From Halobacterium jilantaiense (GTDB lineage Archaea > Halobacteriota > Halobacteria > Halobacteriales > Halobacteriaceae), in contig NZ_FOJA01000001.1 in assembly GCF_900110535.1 (NCBI RefSeq), forward strand, positions 2,019,393 to 2,083,392: a stretch of DNA of 64,000 nucleotides. Reading direction: 5' to 3'. Of the stretch, positions 23,579-33,819 are shown piece after piece. The translations under genes and the position numbers were made by a program. The notes beneath the pieces are model-generated. The model was not told where the DNA came from. It worked only from the letters and a program-made list of their open reading frames with translations, and made no database searches. The stretch's first letter is position 1. The number at the start of each line of letters is the position of its first letter.

Positions 23579-23698
23579 ATGCCGAAGCAGGTGGACGACC
23601 CGGACTACCACCACGAGAACCACACGGCCGCCCAGACGTGTGGCTGGACCGCGAACGCGATGCGCGGCGAGGGCACCTGCTACAAGCACGCCTTATAG
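23579..23698 (+). pseudogene. taw1: Stranded 5' end of the host taw1 gene
   Basis: The 39 codons from ATG 23579 ([18 protein letters not shown]...) match the first residues of the intact Taw1 at 32842 almost position for position, up to CYKHA. Then the frame meets the element junction and stops (TTA TAG). The DNA is high-GC and host-like. The upstream CCACGCTT motif (23546-23553) also recurs ahead of the intact gene. It is therefore the original host start of taw1, cut off by integration. It may still be transcribed, making a useless peptide. Confidence 0.88.
23681..23694 (+). repeat. attL core, inside the taw1 coding sequence
   Basis: TACAAGCACGCCTT is identical to the copy at 32962. With one mismatch the match extends to 17 bases (from 23678). 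It encodes Tyr-Lys-His-Ala of Taw1 plus the start of the next codon. To its left is host taw1 5' sequence, to its right element DNA. Confidence 0.88.
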
Positions 23699-23701
23699 TC
23701 G

Positions 23702-23735
23702 TACCAAACTGCTATAAGCACGGCGCGTATTGGTA
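23702..23735 (+). promoter_or_regulatory. Integrase promoter with att-like repeat
   Basis: CTATAAGC (23712-23719) is a TATA-like element 32 bases before the integrase ATG. It lies within CTGCTATAAGCACGG (23709-23723), which differs from the attL copy CTGCTACAAGCACGC (23677-23691) by two bases. TACCAA (23702-23707) and TTGGTA (23730-23735) form an inverted repeat around it. Integrase binding here could repress its own gene. Confidence 0.5.
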
Positions 23736-23750
23736 TGCGTAGAACTCAGT

Positions 23751-25058
23751 ATGTCCTCGATAGACGACCCCGAACGCCGCTACCAGCTTTCACGGGACCG
23801 ACTGAAAGACGCCGACCTCCACCCCGACGACATAGACGCCGCGCTCGAATTCCTAGACGCAATCAATCCCGACATATCCACAGTCAATTTCACGGGTGAA
23901 AACGGGGAACGCGAGACGAAAGCCTACGGGACGCTCGCAGCGTACGCGCAAGCCCTGAAACGCGTTGGCGAACTGGCGAACACGCCGCTTGTTGAGATGC
24001 CGGACACGCGCGCTGTCAACGCGTTCTTTGACGAGATTGGTAGTGGCACCCACCCAGACGTGAAGGAGGGCGGCTACGCCAAGAGCACGCTCTCACAGTG
24101 GCAGAGCGGCGTTACAAAGTTCTACGAATACCACGACGACCTCGGGATTAACCACACTGAAGTTGTGGTGAAACGCCAGCCGAAGTCGTCAGTGGACGAA
24201 CGCGATATGTACACTCGGGAGGAAATTCAGGAACTCCGGGACGCCGTGAACAACACACGGGATCGGTGTGTGCTTGAGCTCTTATTGAATACGGGCCAGC
24301 GGATTCGAGCAATTCAGACGCTCCGCGTGAAGGACGTCGACACTGACGAGGGGGTTTACTACTTGAACACGGACGAAGCCGGGTTGAAGGGCGCGGACAA
24401 GAACGGCTCGAAGCGTCCACTCCTCGGCGCGGCCCGGCCCGTCTATGACTGGTTGAAAGACCATCCCACGGGGGAGCCCGACGACTATCTGATTACGTGC
24501 CTCCCGACCGCGCAGCGTGGGACAGCCGGGGAGAAACTGTCACAGTCAACGATTCGCTCGCAACTCAAGAAGGTAGCCAAGAACGCGGGAGTGGACAAAC
24601 CACCAAACCCTCACAACTTCCGGCATTACTTCGTCACAGCGTGTAAGCGCGACTACGGCATGGACGAATCGACGATTAAGCACCTAATCGGACACGGCCC
24701 GAACAGTAAGGTAATGGAAACGACCTACCAGCACCTGACTGACGACGACCATATTCGCGCGGCGGAAGTCGCAGCGGACATGCGGGAGCCTGAAGAGGAA
24801 AGTCCGTTGACGCCGCAGGTGTGTCCGACGTGTGGCGAACAGTTAGAGCCGGAGGCGAAGGCGTGTCCGGGGTGTGGGACGGTGTTCGCGCCGGACGCGA
24901 AGGCGGCCGAGGACCAAATACAGGACGACATGAAACAGTCCTATGCGGAGACGGACCCGGAGGATTCGGATACGCAGGAGAAGCTGGATACGCTCGATGA
25001 GATTCTTGATGACCCGGAGGTGAAGGCGGCGCTCGCGGAGAAACTTGGCGAGGACTAA
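23751..25058 (+). CDS. Tyrosine recombinase (integrase) of the element
   Basis: The 435-residue site-specific recombinase catalyses insertion and excision of the element. An N-terminal SAM-like core-binding domain covers about residues 60-150. The catalytic set is complete: the first arginine in NTGQRIRAIQTL near residue 185, HNFRHYF (His-x-x-Arg) near residue 287, HLIGHG near residue 308, and the nucleophile tyrosine in TTYQHL near residue 325. The C-terminus adds a zinc ribbon CPTCGEQLEPEAKACPGCG, common in haloarchaeal integrases. ATG 23751 is chosen over 23730 because it follows the TATA element at a normal distance. It sits 57 bases inside attL. Confidence 0.93.
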   Translation: MSSIDDPERRYQLSRDRLKDADLHPDDIDAALEFLDAINPDISTVNFTGENGERETKAYGTLAAYAQALKRVGELANTPLVEMPDTRAVNAFFDEIGSGTHPDVKEGGYAKSTLSQWQSGVTKFYEYHDDLGINHTEVVVKRQPKSSVDERDMYTREEIQELRDAVNNTRDRCVLELLLNTGQRIRAIQTLRVKDVDTDEGVYYLNTDEAGLKGADKNGSKRPLLGAARPVYDWLKDHPTGEPDDYLITCLPTAQRGTAGEKLSQSTIRSQLKKVAKNAGVDKPPNPHNFRHYFVTACKRDYGMDESTIKHLIGHGPNSKVMETTYQHLTDDDHIRAAEVAADMREPEEESPLTPQVCPTCGEQLEPEAKACPGCGTVFAPDAKAAEDQIQDDMKQSYAETDPEDSDTQEKLDTLDEILDDPEVKAALAEKLGED

Positions 25059-26186: not shown

Positions 26187-26320
26187 CTGACTACAGAAGC
26201 CAGCCACAAAGTCGTTACGGAAAACAATTCTGTGGCGGATGCTGGGAACCCGCGCACACCGAAATTGACGGAACGCCAGTGTGTGAATCGCACGCCCGCG
26301 CCTACGGGGTGATTCGGTGA
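26183..26320 (+). CDS. Small zinc-finger protein (45 aa)
   Basis: The peptide contains a compact metal site: CGGC at residues 17-20 and CESH at residues 34-37, i.e. CxxC...CxxH. The rest is basic and glycine-poor. Small zinc fingers next to replication genes are frequent in haloarchaeal viruses and plasmids and usually bind DNA or a partner protein. GTG start, overlapping micro-ORF 3 by four bases and the primase gene by four bases. Confidence 0.65.
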   Translation: MTDYRSQPQSRYGKQFCGGCWEPAHTEIDGTPVCESHARAYGVIR

Positions 26321-28743
26321 GCATTCAAAAACCCCCACGCCCAGAGCCATTAGATGTAACCCCCAGCGCAATCCCCGACACACTCACCAATCAGGATGCG
26401 TGGGTGTGCTGGCGGTACGAATGGGACGCCGACCGCGAAGATTGGACGAAACTCCCCGTCGACGTCAACACCGGAGGGATTGCCAAATCCACGGACGGCG
26501 AAACGTGGACGTCGTTCGAGGACGCGGTCAGCTACCACGCCAAGCAAACCACGGACACGGATGGGATCGGATTCGTTCTTCACGACGAGGCTACCATTCT
26601 GGGCCTTGACCTTGATGATTGCCGCGACCCCGAAACAGGCGACCGCGAGGCATGGGCCGACCACGTGCTTGAGAAGGTCCCCACGTATGCGGAGGTATCC
26701 CCGTCCGGAACCGGATTGCGGTTACTCGGCCTGGGGTTCGTCCCTGAGGGAGGGAACCGCGCGGACGTCGAGGATGAACCCGGCCACATTGAGATGTACG
26801 ATACCGGCCGATATCTGACTGTGACCGGCCACCGGATTGAGGACACGCCGGCGGACGTGACGCAAGTCCATCAAGCAGTGAAGGACGTCCACGGTGAGTA
26901 TATCGCTAGTGACGCTGAATCCGCCGGCTCGGAGGATGGACCTGGCGGCGTGAACCCCACCCCTAAGGCCGGCAAGACCGGGTCGGTCCCCCTATCGGAC
27001 GCCGACCTTATCGAGAAGGCGAAGAACGCCGAGAACGGTGAGAAGTTCCGCCGGCTGTGGAACGGAGATACGGCGGGGTATCCGTCACAGAGCGAAGCGG
27101 ATCAGGCGCTCGTGAATCTGCTGGCGTTCTGGACGGGCGGTGACCGTTCGAGGATTGACAGTCTGTTCCGCGAATCCGGTTTGTACCGGGAGAAGTGGGA
27201 TGCCGACCGTGGCGACCGGACGTATGGGGAGCGAACGATACGGACGGCGCTAGAGGGTCAAACTGAGTTCTACGACCCGGACGCCACAGAGAACACTTCC
27301 CCGGAGCGTGACGCCGGCGAGAACGTCACAGACGGCGACAAGCGAACCGGCACGCACGACGTGACGTGGTCGGACGTATACGAGCGGTATCAGAACGCGG
27401 AGAACAGCGACGGGAAGAACGCCGCACGGTATGACGCCGCCGAAGTTCTCCTACAAAACCACTATTGGCGGACCTTCGAGGAAGACGATACGCTATGGTG
27501 GTACGATCCGAACGACGGGATTTACCGGCAAACCGGAGAGTCACAAGCCCGCCAAATCGTCCGTGACCGCCTGCGTGACAAGTACGCGCGTAACGAGGTC
27601 CGCGAGGTCTTATCCCACCTTCGAGCGGCTACGACAGTCACACAAGACGATATGGGTGGGCCTGCAGAGAAAGTTGCCGTGGCCAACGGCGTGTTGGACG
27701 TATCCGACCGTGAGTTATCCGACCACGACCCCGAGTATAATTTCTTGAGCCGTCTCGGAACGGAATACGATCCGGACGCGGATTGTCCCCGGTTCAAACA
27801 ATTCCTTGACGAAGTGGTGTCCGACGAAACAGCCAAGAAGAAACTGCAGGAGTTCGCGGGCTTCACGCTAATGCACTGGCGGCTAAAGTGGCATAAGAGC
27901 CTCTTCATCGTCGGTCCACGGAATAGCGGGAAATCCACGTTTGCCGATACGATACGCGCTCTTCACGGTGAGGACACCGTGGCTAGTCTCTCCCCACAGG
28001 AAATGACCCAACGGTTCGGCGGCGCGGAACTGTACGGGAAGTGGGTGAATATCCGGAACGATATTCCCGCGAGCGCGGTGAAGAAAACCGGGACGTTCAA
28101 AGAGATTATCGCGGGCGACCCCATCAAGGCTGAGCGGAAGGGCAAAGACCCGTTCATGTTCACGCCAACCGCGAAACACATTTTCGCAGCGAACCAGCTC
28201 CCCGATACGGAGAACGACGACGGGGCGTTCTATCGCCGGATTCTCCTCGCGGCATTTCCTCGAACAATCCCACAGGACGACCGCGACGGTGATTTAGACG
28301 AGAAACTCGAATCGGAGCTTCCCGGTATCTTAAACTGGGCGCTTGACGGCCTGCAGCGGCTTCGGGAACAGGGTGGCTTCACGGGTGACTTGACGCCGTC
28401 CCTAACAGCCGAGAAGTGGGATAAATGGGGGAGTACAGTGGACCGATTCGCGTCTACGTGCCTTGACGTGGGTGACGTAGGTAACACCGAACCGATTCCG
28501 AAAAAGACCGTGCATCAAGTGTATAAGAACTTCTGCGAGCAAGAGTCCATGCCGGCGGAAATGCAGAGTGAAATGACCACGCGGCTGAAAACAGACCACA
28601 ACGTGAGTGACGGCCGTGCGACTGTGAACGGAACACAGAAACGGTGTTTTCTGAATGTCTCGTTCACGGCGCGAGCAGACGCCTATCGGTCGGACACAGA
28701 CGCAGGTGGCCGGTCATCCAGTGGCTTCGGCGGCTTCGAGTAG
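26317..28743 (+). CDS. Primase-polymerase / SF3 helicase replication protein
   Basis: The 808-residue replication initiator-type protein. The N-terminal 200 residues are an archaeo-eukaryotic primase-polymerase (prim-pol) domain. Its catalytic acidic motif is GLDLDDCRD near residue 97, with SPSGTGLRLLG and GHIEMYDTGRYLTVTGH further on. A linker follows, then a D5/P4-type SF3 helicase. Walker A is GPRNSGKSTFADTI near residue 535, the B region YGKWVNIRNDIP, and sensor/arginine segments HIFAANQLPDTENDDGAFYRRI. A winged-helix tail follows. It should prime and unwind the element's DNA at the adjacent repeat region. GTG start (MSIQKPPRPE). Confidence 0.9.
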   Translation: MSIQKPPRPEPLDVTPSAIPDTLTNQDAWVCWRYEWDADREDWTKLPVDVNTGGIAKSTDGETWTSFEDAVSYHAKQTTDTDGIGFVLHDEATILGLDLDDCRDPETGDREAWADHVLEKVPTYAEVSPSGTGLRLLGLGFVPEGGNRADVEDEPGHIEMYDTGRYLTVTGHRIEDTPADVTQVHQAVKDVHGEYIASDAESAGSEDGPGGVNPTPKAGKTGSVPLSDADLIEKAKNAENGEKFRRLWNGDTAGYPSQSEADQALVNLLAFWTGGDRSRIDSLFRESGLYREKWDADRGDRTYGERTIRTALEGQTEFYDPDATENTSPERDAGENVTDGDKRTGTHDVTWSDVYERYQNAENSDGKNAARYDAAEVLLQNHYWRTFEEDDTLWWYDPNDGIYRQTGESQARQIVRDRLRDKYARNEVREVLSHLRAATTVTQDDMGGPAEKVAVANGVLDVSDRELSDHDPEYNFLSRLGTEYDPDADCPRFKQFLDEVVSDETAKKKLQEFAGFTLMHWRLKWHKSLFIVGPRNSGKSTFADTIRALHGEDTVASLSPQEMTQRFGGAELYGKWVNIRNDIPASAVKKTGTFKEIIAGDPIKAERKGKDPFMFTPTAKHIFAANQLPDTENDDGAFYRRILLAAFPRTIPQDDRDGDLDEKLESELPGILNWALDGLQRLREQGGFTGDLTPSLTAEKWDKWGSTVDRFASTCLDVGDVGNTEPIPKKTVHQVYKNFCEQESMPAEMQSEMTTRLKTDHNVSDGRATVNGTQKRCFLNVSFTARADAYRSDTDAGGRSSSGFGGFE

Positions 28744-28778: not shown

Positions 28779-28990
28779 TGGTGAAAGTATAACTTGCCGG
28801 ATCCAGGCATCACACACCACAGTACGCCAATATAAGTATTTTAACTAGACAACCCCCGGCATATCTACGCGCGTATGCGTATGCATGCCCGCCCGCCTGT
28901 GTGGTTCATCGGGGTTTGTCTAGTCAACTAGATTATATTGGCGGAAGCGTGGTTATACTCTCTGTATTACGGTGGTAACACTTTCACCAC
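28779..28990. other. Nested inverted repeats, probable replication origin
   Basis: Arms nest around a GC-rich centre. GGTGAAAGT (28780-28788) pairs with ACTTTCACC (28980-28988), AGTATAAC (28786-28793) with GTTATACT (28952-28959), CGCCAATATAA (28825-28835) with TTATATTGGCG (28933-28943), and ACTAGACAACCCC (28844-28856) with GGGGTTTGTCTAGT (28911-28924, one extra T). A palindrome TCTAGTCAACTAGA sits at 28919-28932. There is no gene between 28744 and 29216. It lies directly after the replication gene. Confidence 0.6.
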
Positions 28991-32841: not shown

Positions 32842-33819
32842 ATGAGCGAGGGCGAGTCCGGACCGAAGCAAGTCGATGATCCGGACTACCATAGCGTGAA
32901 TCACACGGCGGCCCAGGCCTGCGGATGGACGAAGAATGCACTTACAGAAGGTCGGTCGTGTTACAAGCACGCCTTCTACGGCATCCGCTCGCACCGCTGC
33001 ATCCAGATGACGCCGGTGGTGCGGTGCAACGAGCGCTGCGTGTTCTGCTGGCGGGACCACTCCGGGCACACGTACGAACTCGACGGCGTCGAGTGGGACG
33101 ACCCGGAGGCCGTCGTCGACGCCTCGATTCGCCTCCAGCGGAAGCTGCTGTCGGGGTTCGGCGGGAACGACGAGGTTCCCAGAGAGCGCTTCGAGGAGGC
33201 GCTGGAGCCCCGGCACGTCGCCATCTCTCTGGACGGCGAGCCGACGCTCTACCCGCACCTCCCGGAACTCATCGAGGCGTTCCACGACCGCGGGCTGACG
33301 ACGTTCCTCGTGTCGAACGGCACTCGGCCGGAGGTGTTGCGGGAGTGCGACCCGACGCAGCTCTACGTCTCCGTGGACGCGCCGGAGCGCGCGACGTTCG
33401 ACGACGTGGTCGGGGCTCAGGAGGACGACGCGTGGGAGAAGCTCGTGGACACGATGGACGTGCTCTACGAGAAAGACGAGACGCGGACGGTGCTGCGGAC
33501 GACGCTCGTTGGCGGCGAGAACATGGCGAACCCGGACTGGTACGCGGGGTTCTTCGAGCGCGCGGACCCGGACTTCGTGGAGCTGAAGGCGTACATGCAC
33601 GTCGGCGACAGCCGGGACCGCCTCGGCCGGGAGGCGATGCCGAGCCCCGAGCGCGTCACGGCGTTCGCCGAGACGGTGCAGGAGCACATGTCGAGTCTCC
33701 CGGTGCTGAAGACCGACGAGTCTTCGCGAATCGCGTTGCTGGCGCGCGACGAGGACACGTGGGTGCCGGAACTGGAACACGGCTCCGAGTTCTGGGCGGA
33801 GGGCGCGCAGGCTGACTGA
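32842..33819 (+). CDS. taw1: 4-demethylwyosine synthase (chimeric, rebuilt gene)
   Basis: The 325-residue radical SAM enzyme makes 4-demethylwyosine on tRNA-Phe position 37 from N1-methylguanosine and pyruvate. The SAM cluster motif CNERCVFCWRDH is near residue 62, followed by AISLDGEPTLYPHL and FVELKAYMHVG. A further conserved cysteine pair lies in the N-terminal 45 residues. The first 40 codons come from the element and differ from the stranded host copy at 23579. From codon 41 (in the att core) onward the gene is host sequence. The reading frame is intact, so the enzyme should work. Confidence 0.93.
   Translation: MSEGESGPKQVDDPDYHSVNHTAAQACGWTKNALTEGRSCYKHAFYGIRSHRCIQMTPVVRCNERCVFCWRDHSGHTYELDGVEWDDPEAVVDASIRLQRKLLSGFGGNDEVPRERFEEALEPRHVAISLDGEPTLYPHLPELIEAFHDRGLTTFLVSNGTRPEVLRECDPTQLYVSVDAPERATFDDVVGAQEDDAWEKLVDTMDVLYEKDETRTVLRTTLVGGENMANPDWYAGFFERADPDFVELKAYMHVGDSRDRLGREAMPSPERVTAFAETVQEHMSSLPVLKTDESSRIALLARDEDTWVPELEHGSEFWAEGAQAD
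32962..32975 (+). repeat. attR core, inside taw1
   Basis: TACAAGCACGCCTT, the exact match of attL at 23681. Left of it is the element's replacement taw1 start, right of it the host taw1 body (CTACGGCATCC...). Confidence 0.88.

Follow-up and report, generated by a model that had tools for sequence, protein, structure and literature searches.

Why does the attL junction of an integrated archaeal element carry a second, imperfect copy of its recombination core, placed where the promoter of the integrase gene would be expected? The question was raised by an earlier note on the 64,000-nt stretch of DNA analysed here (the window). The repeat is present as the note described it: CTGCTATAAGCACGG at 23709-23723 is a two-mismatch relative of CTGCTACAAGCACGC at 23677-23691, 32 bp apart. 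The copy contains the motif TATAAG, a putative TATA box of the integrase gene, which starts 38 bp upstream of the in-frame integrase ATG at 23751, a distance that is long for a leaderless transcript. This ATG is located 57 bp past the end of the 14-bp core with TATAAG in between, and the integrase gene is transcribed away from attL.

The element measures 9281 bp from core to core (between 23681 and 32962) and has a GC content of 58.7%, compared to 68.9% and 67.3% in the flanks. We joined the host flanks at the core and aligned them to the TYW1 loci of two genus mates with an intact gene, which served as empty-site comparison. The alignments run uninterrupted across the junction (88.4% over 988 bp in G023 and 87.0% over 975 bp in G012), which places the insertion point of the 9.28-kb element in the 5′ part of TYW1, the gene for 4-demethylwyosine synthase. 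Furthermore, a 42-residue query from the host TYW1 fragment matched G023 at 100% with the frame uninterrupted. The locus thus shows both marks of a site-specific integrative element: the att sequence is duplicated, and relatives have the empty site without interruption. Its main features are:

23579-23698, + strand: 39 codons of the host TYW1 5′ end, truncated by the element at attL; continuous with intact TYW1 after joining of the flanks
23681-23694, + strand: attL copy of the 14-bp identity TACAAGCACGCCTT, common to attL and attR
23751-25058, + strand: tyrosine integrase of 435 aa; zinc ribbon at the C-terminus
26317-28743, + strand: replication protein, element cargo, with D5_N, DUF5906 and NrS-1 polymerase HBD domains
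32842-33819, + strand: TYW1 restored at attR, element codons up to the core and the host 3′ part beyond (TIGR03972)
32962-32975, + strand: attR copy of TACAAGCACGCCTT, exact match at +9211

The integrase scores 79.1 bits against PF00589 (Phage_integrase, cutoff 27.1) over residues 155-331, which identifies it as a tyrosine recombinase, and the product of the attR-side gene scores 378 bits against TIGR03972 (4-demethylwyosine synthase TYW1, cutoff 318). As read from the sequence, strand exchange is located inside the 14-bp identity; the first TYW1 codons of the element are fused in frame at the core and the host 5′ fragment is left as a stub. The host fragment and the start of the attR-side TYW1 are diverged copies (80 of 114 bases over the stretch compared). 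On reading the sequence we saw TATA-like stretches upstream of the supplied TYW1 ATG, and by its position the promoter of the restored gene is predicted to be supplied by the element. The supplied TYW1 5′ end (32842-32975) reads unlike the host stub, so that the window element may come from another genus; in two related elements, those of G135 and G257, the supplied end is similar to the host's own. We also noted a 34-nt inverted repeat (28825-28943, 79% complementary, 51-nt loop) directly after the primase/helicase-like gene of the element, a possible replication origin.

How unusual is the repeat within the window? A second 15-mer with up to three mismatches anywhere in the 64 kb is not rare, as at least two matches occurred in 15 of 100 shuffles. 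At an offset of 32 bp, 12 of 13 bases agree. When the downstream tail was shuffled 20,000 times with dinucleotides preserved, no shuffle equalled this at the same offset, and one did so at any offset from 14 to 51. The flanking arms that the note had pointed out fared less well:

23702-23735, no strand: inverted arms TACCAA/TTGGTA on either side of the near copy, without conservation

TACCAA (23702-23707) and TTGGTA (23730-23735) are indeed there, but three related elements do not conserve them. Arms of this length arise in 90 of 2000 shuffles, and they are probably incidental.

The note had suggested asking whether the repeat is conserved in related elements. A TYW1 N-terminus match was found in 236 of 391 genomes of the class, and two such matches in four of them (the window's own, G135, G257 and G238, as read from the table of 391). 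A fifth genome, G440, was added by a family search with an integrase profile (146 genomes); its integrase frame is interrupted. A related integrase starts directly beside attL in the window, G135, G257 and G440, with 71% (G135) and 63% (G257) identity to that of the window. Both ends, and with them the new in-frame N-terminus from the element, are seen for the window, G135 and G257, while in G440 the TYW1 fragment and the full gene are on separate contigs. Two further TYW1 genes, used as contrast only, lie beside integrases 40% and 37% identical to the window's (G383, L051 15401-15700; G238, L050 2481-6220). The element of G238 lies between a TYW1 stub and a complete copy, and its integrase gene is internal, at neither junction. 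In G383, about 100 bp separate the end of the integrase from TYW1, and we saw no stub. The same TYW1 codons may be the target of other integrases as well.

All four TYW1 elements with related integrases carry the copy exactly 32 bp from the core, that is, TATAA begins exactly 32 bp past the core TACAA in each of them; the copy is conserved in the comparison that the note had suggested. The distance from the copy to the integrase ATG varies (38, 26, 28 and 23 bp in the window, G135, G257 and G440). Summed over the four, 36 of 52 positions match at offset 32, a value reached by none of 20,000 base shuffles. The four elements have common ancestry; in column permutations preserving their relatedness the value was likewise not reached (0/5000), nor was the sum without the window (24/39, 0/5000). 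Pairwise identity sums of 50/78 for the copy, 34/90 for the linker and 17/78 after the copy show that the copy is better kept than its surroundings. G257 alone is weak (6/13, equalled at offset 32 by 509 of 5000 shuffles), and a strict two-copy pattern searched over the 391 genomes matched the window alone. A specific match between each near copy and the core of its own element was rejected, since 6 of 24 pairings, including the true one, score as high.

A competing explanation is that the copy is the TATA box of the integrase gene and nothing else: the Tyr-Lys codons of TYW1 (TAYAAG) resemble a TATA box, and the spacing would be inherited from the common ancestor. TATAA is present in all four copies; for three of them the distance to the ATG, 23-28 bp, is the one expected of a TATA box in haloarchaea, and G257 has just 3 matches in the 11 positions beyond TAYAA. 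Against it, the core spacing is fixed and the ATG spacing varies, and when the flanks of TAYAA are compared over the four elements, 24 of 44 positions agree (binomial, 3e-5). We regard this explanation as rather improbable, also in view of two observations described below, a mirror arm in coding sequence and the recurrence of the repeat elsewhere.

The core and the copy can be described in terms of one 7-bp half-site pattern, with the following half-sites at the two junctions:

23680-23686, + strand: half-site C in attL, host-derived, CTACAAG
23692-23698, − strand: half-site C′, inverted, CTTATAG (read as CTATAAG on the − strand), for the most part from the element
23712-23718, + strand: half-site P′, CTATAAG, heart of the near copy, 32 bp from C; overlaps the putative TATA element
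32941-32947, − strand: half-site P, inverted, CTTACAG, in the TYW1 codons brought by the element; mirrors P′ across the centre of the core
32961-32967, + strand: half-site C of the element, attR side, TTACAAG

On the circular element, attP would comprise four related half-sites, P-C-C′-P′ (CTTACAG, TTACAAG, CTTATAG and CTATAAG), and in the window their symmetry axis is the centre of the 5-bp CACGC. The C-P′ and P-C′ spacings are both 32 bp, about three helical turns. The attB site in the host TYW1 contains a weak counterpart of C and C′, while P and P′ are found only on the element. P is situated in coding sequence and not in a promoter, which the TATA box explanation leaves unaccounted for. 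As P-C and C′-P′ are mirror images about one centre, the arms could in principle act as a palindrome, with a cruciform or hairpin of attP as the true substrate; with arms this short and imperfect and linkers that are unpaired, such a structure is scarcely credible.

Arm P could be followed in the related elements. CTTRYA is found exactly at -21 from the core TAYAA in the supplied TYW1 ends of all four (window, G135, G257 and G440), and at this position in none of five host fragments, two intact hosts and the two TYW1 genes beside distant integrases (G238 and G383). The residue encoded there is Thr or Val in the four elements, but the host fragments belonging to them have Arg, Asn, Gln and Arg, a difference that suggests a DNA-level constraint on the supplied codons. 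In a joint search for three arms, the best position coincided with the expected one in 4/4 TYW1 attL sites, with scores of 19, 16, 15 and 14 out of 21; in G135 and G440 the right arm (C′) matches poorly.

Is the 32-bp phase restricted to TYW1? For the integrase relatives that the class and family searches had returned, we took the upstream regions and removed similar ones, which reduced 41 loci to 20 representatives (set 1), 37 to 32 (set 2) and 18 to 10 (set 3). Sets 2 and 3 were collected after the 32-bp idea arose, and L079, L124, L147 and L148 were left out. The most upstream in-frame ATG was taken as the start codon, and some starts are therefore wrong. A TYW1 motif was found in none of the 78 regions of sets 1 and 2 and in none of the 62 representatives, none of which resembled the four TYW1 attL regions either. 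Direct repeats were scanned as the best 12-mer self-match per offset and compared with dinucleotide shuffles. For sets 1 and 2 together (78 loci, 52 representatives) offset 32 gave a z of 4.8 and ranked first of 38 offsets; set 2 alone gave 4.0 and again the first rank, set 1 alone 2.6 and the eighth. Most of the other high offsets are divisible by three, a pattern that coding sequence in the flanks would produce; this does not hold for 32. With all 62 representatives and the zone from -95 to 0, z rose to 6.0 for offset 32, the next non-multiple of three reaching 1.1.

Among the non-multiples of three, 32 was the top offset at all widths from 6 to 20 (at width 20 offset 33 scored 4.8 against 4.7 for 32) and in the upstream zones tried, weakly so in the zone -135 to -45 (z 0.9); in set 3, zone -135 to 0, offset 29 came out above 32. 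The signal is spread over many loci, and an excess persists without the top 15. It is absent within the integrase gene, further upstream, and upstream of 350 other genes (z -1.4; contrast 0/5000 subsets).

The geometry of the window (C-C′ 12, C-P′ 32) was recorded before the joint three-arm scan. In a grid of 143 geometries over the 62 regions, 12/32 ranked first with a z of 6.5; a rerun gave 7.2, with 0/200 shuffles as high. By set the z values are 3.6, 5.0 and 1.75, set 3 alone being marginal (13/200 shuffles). For comparison, the 350 control upstream regions yielded a three-arm z of 1.4 and random subsets of 62 of them ranged from -0.1 to 2.1. The geometry that we had guessed first, 13/32 with gaps of 6 and 12, reached only 2.7 in the joint scan against 6.5 for 12/32 and was dropped.

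The repeat thus recurs with other sequences in regions without TYW1 motifs, which further argues against a TATA box alone. It also bears on the suggestion of the earlier note that the copy might be a former junction. Whether as a relic of an earlier insertion or as a secondary att site for tandem or imprecise integration, the copy can be read as degenerate TYW1 codons (Cys-Tyr-Lys-His). A relic would not hold a fixed 32-bp phase across so many elements, however; the phase is exact in 4/4 TYW1 elements, and away from TYW1 the repeat recurs with a copy unlike TYW1. We therefore consider a relic highly improbable. A different protein of the element or the host, such as a directionality factor or repressor, might bind the outer arms instead of the integrase, and fixed helical phasing would suit any DNA-bending partner; but the similarity of P and P′ to C and C′, and the return of the same phase ahead of many related integrases, make this assignment appear improbable.

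Individual families of integrase loci grouped by target gave a more mixed picture. In family B the copy is located at 33-34 bp (68/5000 permutations in an unrestricted scan, 14/5000 when restricted to 30-34 bp). Family C shows it at 32 bp only if offsets of 30-34 are considered and a 3-nt deletion in one member is bridged (15/5000), whereas in the unrestricted scan 1641 of 5000 permutations were as good. No significant copy was detected in family E (3467/5000 unrestricted, 1674/5000 at 30-34 bp) or in family Dd (1847/5000 at 30-34 bp). Six loci (L008-L012 and L017) have in common a target gene encoding KWYNYG on the opposite strand, upstream of the integrase; they carry the core-like AGGTGTAA 33-34 bp from the core, and this site does not look like an obvious TATA box. 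The cores of three integrase relatives (L129, L133 and L143) could be read visually as the anticodon arm of the 3′ half of a displaced tRNA, and a stretch similar to the core lies 32-34 bp off; this assignment as tRNA was not supported by ARAGORN (0 of 57 loci) or Rfam (0 matches). Two genomes, G375 and G223, contain two integrase copies each with near-identical upstream sequence in two places (L089/L090 and L083/L084). A short-repeat search for attR at 39 non-TYW1 integrase loci yielded mostly repeats expected by chance, and arm P is therefore checkable in the TYW1 elements alone. By the search method used, the viral contig collection yielded no integrase relative, and it matched the core pattern once, in an unrelated context; the plasmid and phage collections contained distant integrases only (34.7% and 39.5% identity at the best places).

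Taken together, the simplest account, which we think probable, is that the repeat is P′, an outer core-type integrase half-site of a four-armed attP that lies over the likely promoter. The integrase would bind all four half-sites, C and C′ flanking the crossover, whereas the outer arms would mark attP, attL and attR as element DNA, unlike attB, and help to assemble the synapse. In the least certain step, P′ occupancy would block TBP/TFB at TATAAG, and the integrase may in this way repress its own gene. The idea of the earlier note that the integrase binds beside its own promoter remains the best reading given the 32-bp conservation and its recurrence away from TYW1, with the binding itself and the feedback as its inferred parts.

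Beyond this locus, we put forward with some hesitation, at a little under even confidence, that many haloarchaeal tyrosine integrases share one attP geometry: four core-type half-sites, the outer two 32 bp from their partners, with varying sequence but fixed spacing, the integrase-side arm lying in the promoter region and the other writable into replacement codons of a host gene. If this holds, site recognition and integrase dosage would be wired together, and the outer arm opposite the integrase could sit in the replacement codons of the host gene. With such a rule, att sites and the specificity of half-sites could be predicted from sequence alone; the geometry would also suggest how the amount of integrase is coupled to how far its own site is occupied, and present a case of donated host-gene codons constrained by a recombinase as well as by the protein.

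Literature searches on TYW1 or wyosine together with integrases returned no such arrangement among the best-ranked titles and abstract openings, with most subscription papers outside the scope; those on extra core-type sites and on haloarchaeal integrases with a TATA box and attP gave no match by titles and abstract openings. Precedents for elements that replace the 5′ end of their target gene are described in the covered parts of PMC8409611, with IMEVchUSA3 in dusA and the ICE SXT in prfC (SXT as cited there). Those elements are bacterial and use other integrases and genes, in contrast to the archaeal TYW1 case, in which the supplied codons also hold the apparent integrase arm P. The closest parallel for the promoter is intS of the E. 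coli prophage KplE1, where, according to the sections of PMC2951348 covered, attL overlaps a negatively autoregulated int promoter. Both systems have the integrase gene beside attL, and in both the promoter (putative here) falls within the recombination region, with integrase sites (predicted here) over promoter elements. KplE1 differs in that distinct arm-type sites lie in the overlap and repression was measured (PMC2951348), whereas here the overlapping site is core-like, its distance of 32 bp is fixed, the putative promoter is of the archaeal type and repression is a prediction.

The arm-type sites of phage lambda have their own consensus and a separate binding domain, unlike the outer sites described here, which share the core half-site pattern. 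As in lambda, the proposed attP exceeds attB in length and has additional integrase sites, predicted ones in the present case, next to the core (PMC8371274, in part). In the parts covered, this review does not mention outer core-like arms or integrase autoregulation, and the terms 'direct repeat' and 'autoregulat' are absent from the text. It does report that archaeal sites need bases outside the identity block of attP and attB and that minimal sites are poorly defined (PMC8371274); for the integrases studied here, a fixed four-arm geometry would explain these extra bases. The element also resembles SSV1, pTN3, pT26-2 and SNJ2, as presented in the same parts of the review (PMC8371274), in its tyrosine recombinase and the inverted arms of its core, many of those systems targeting tRNA genes.
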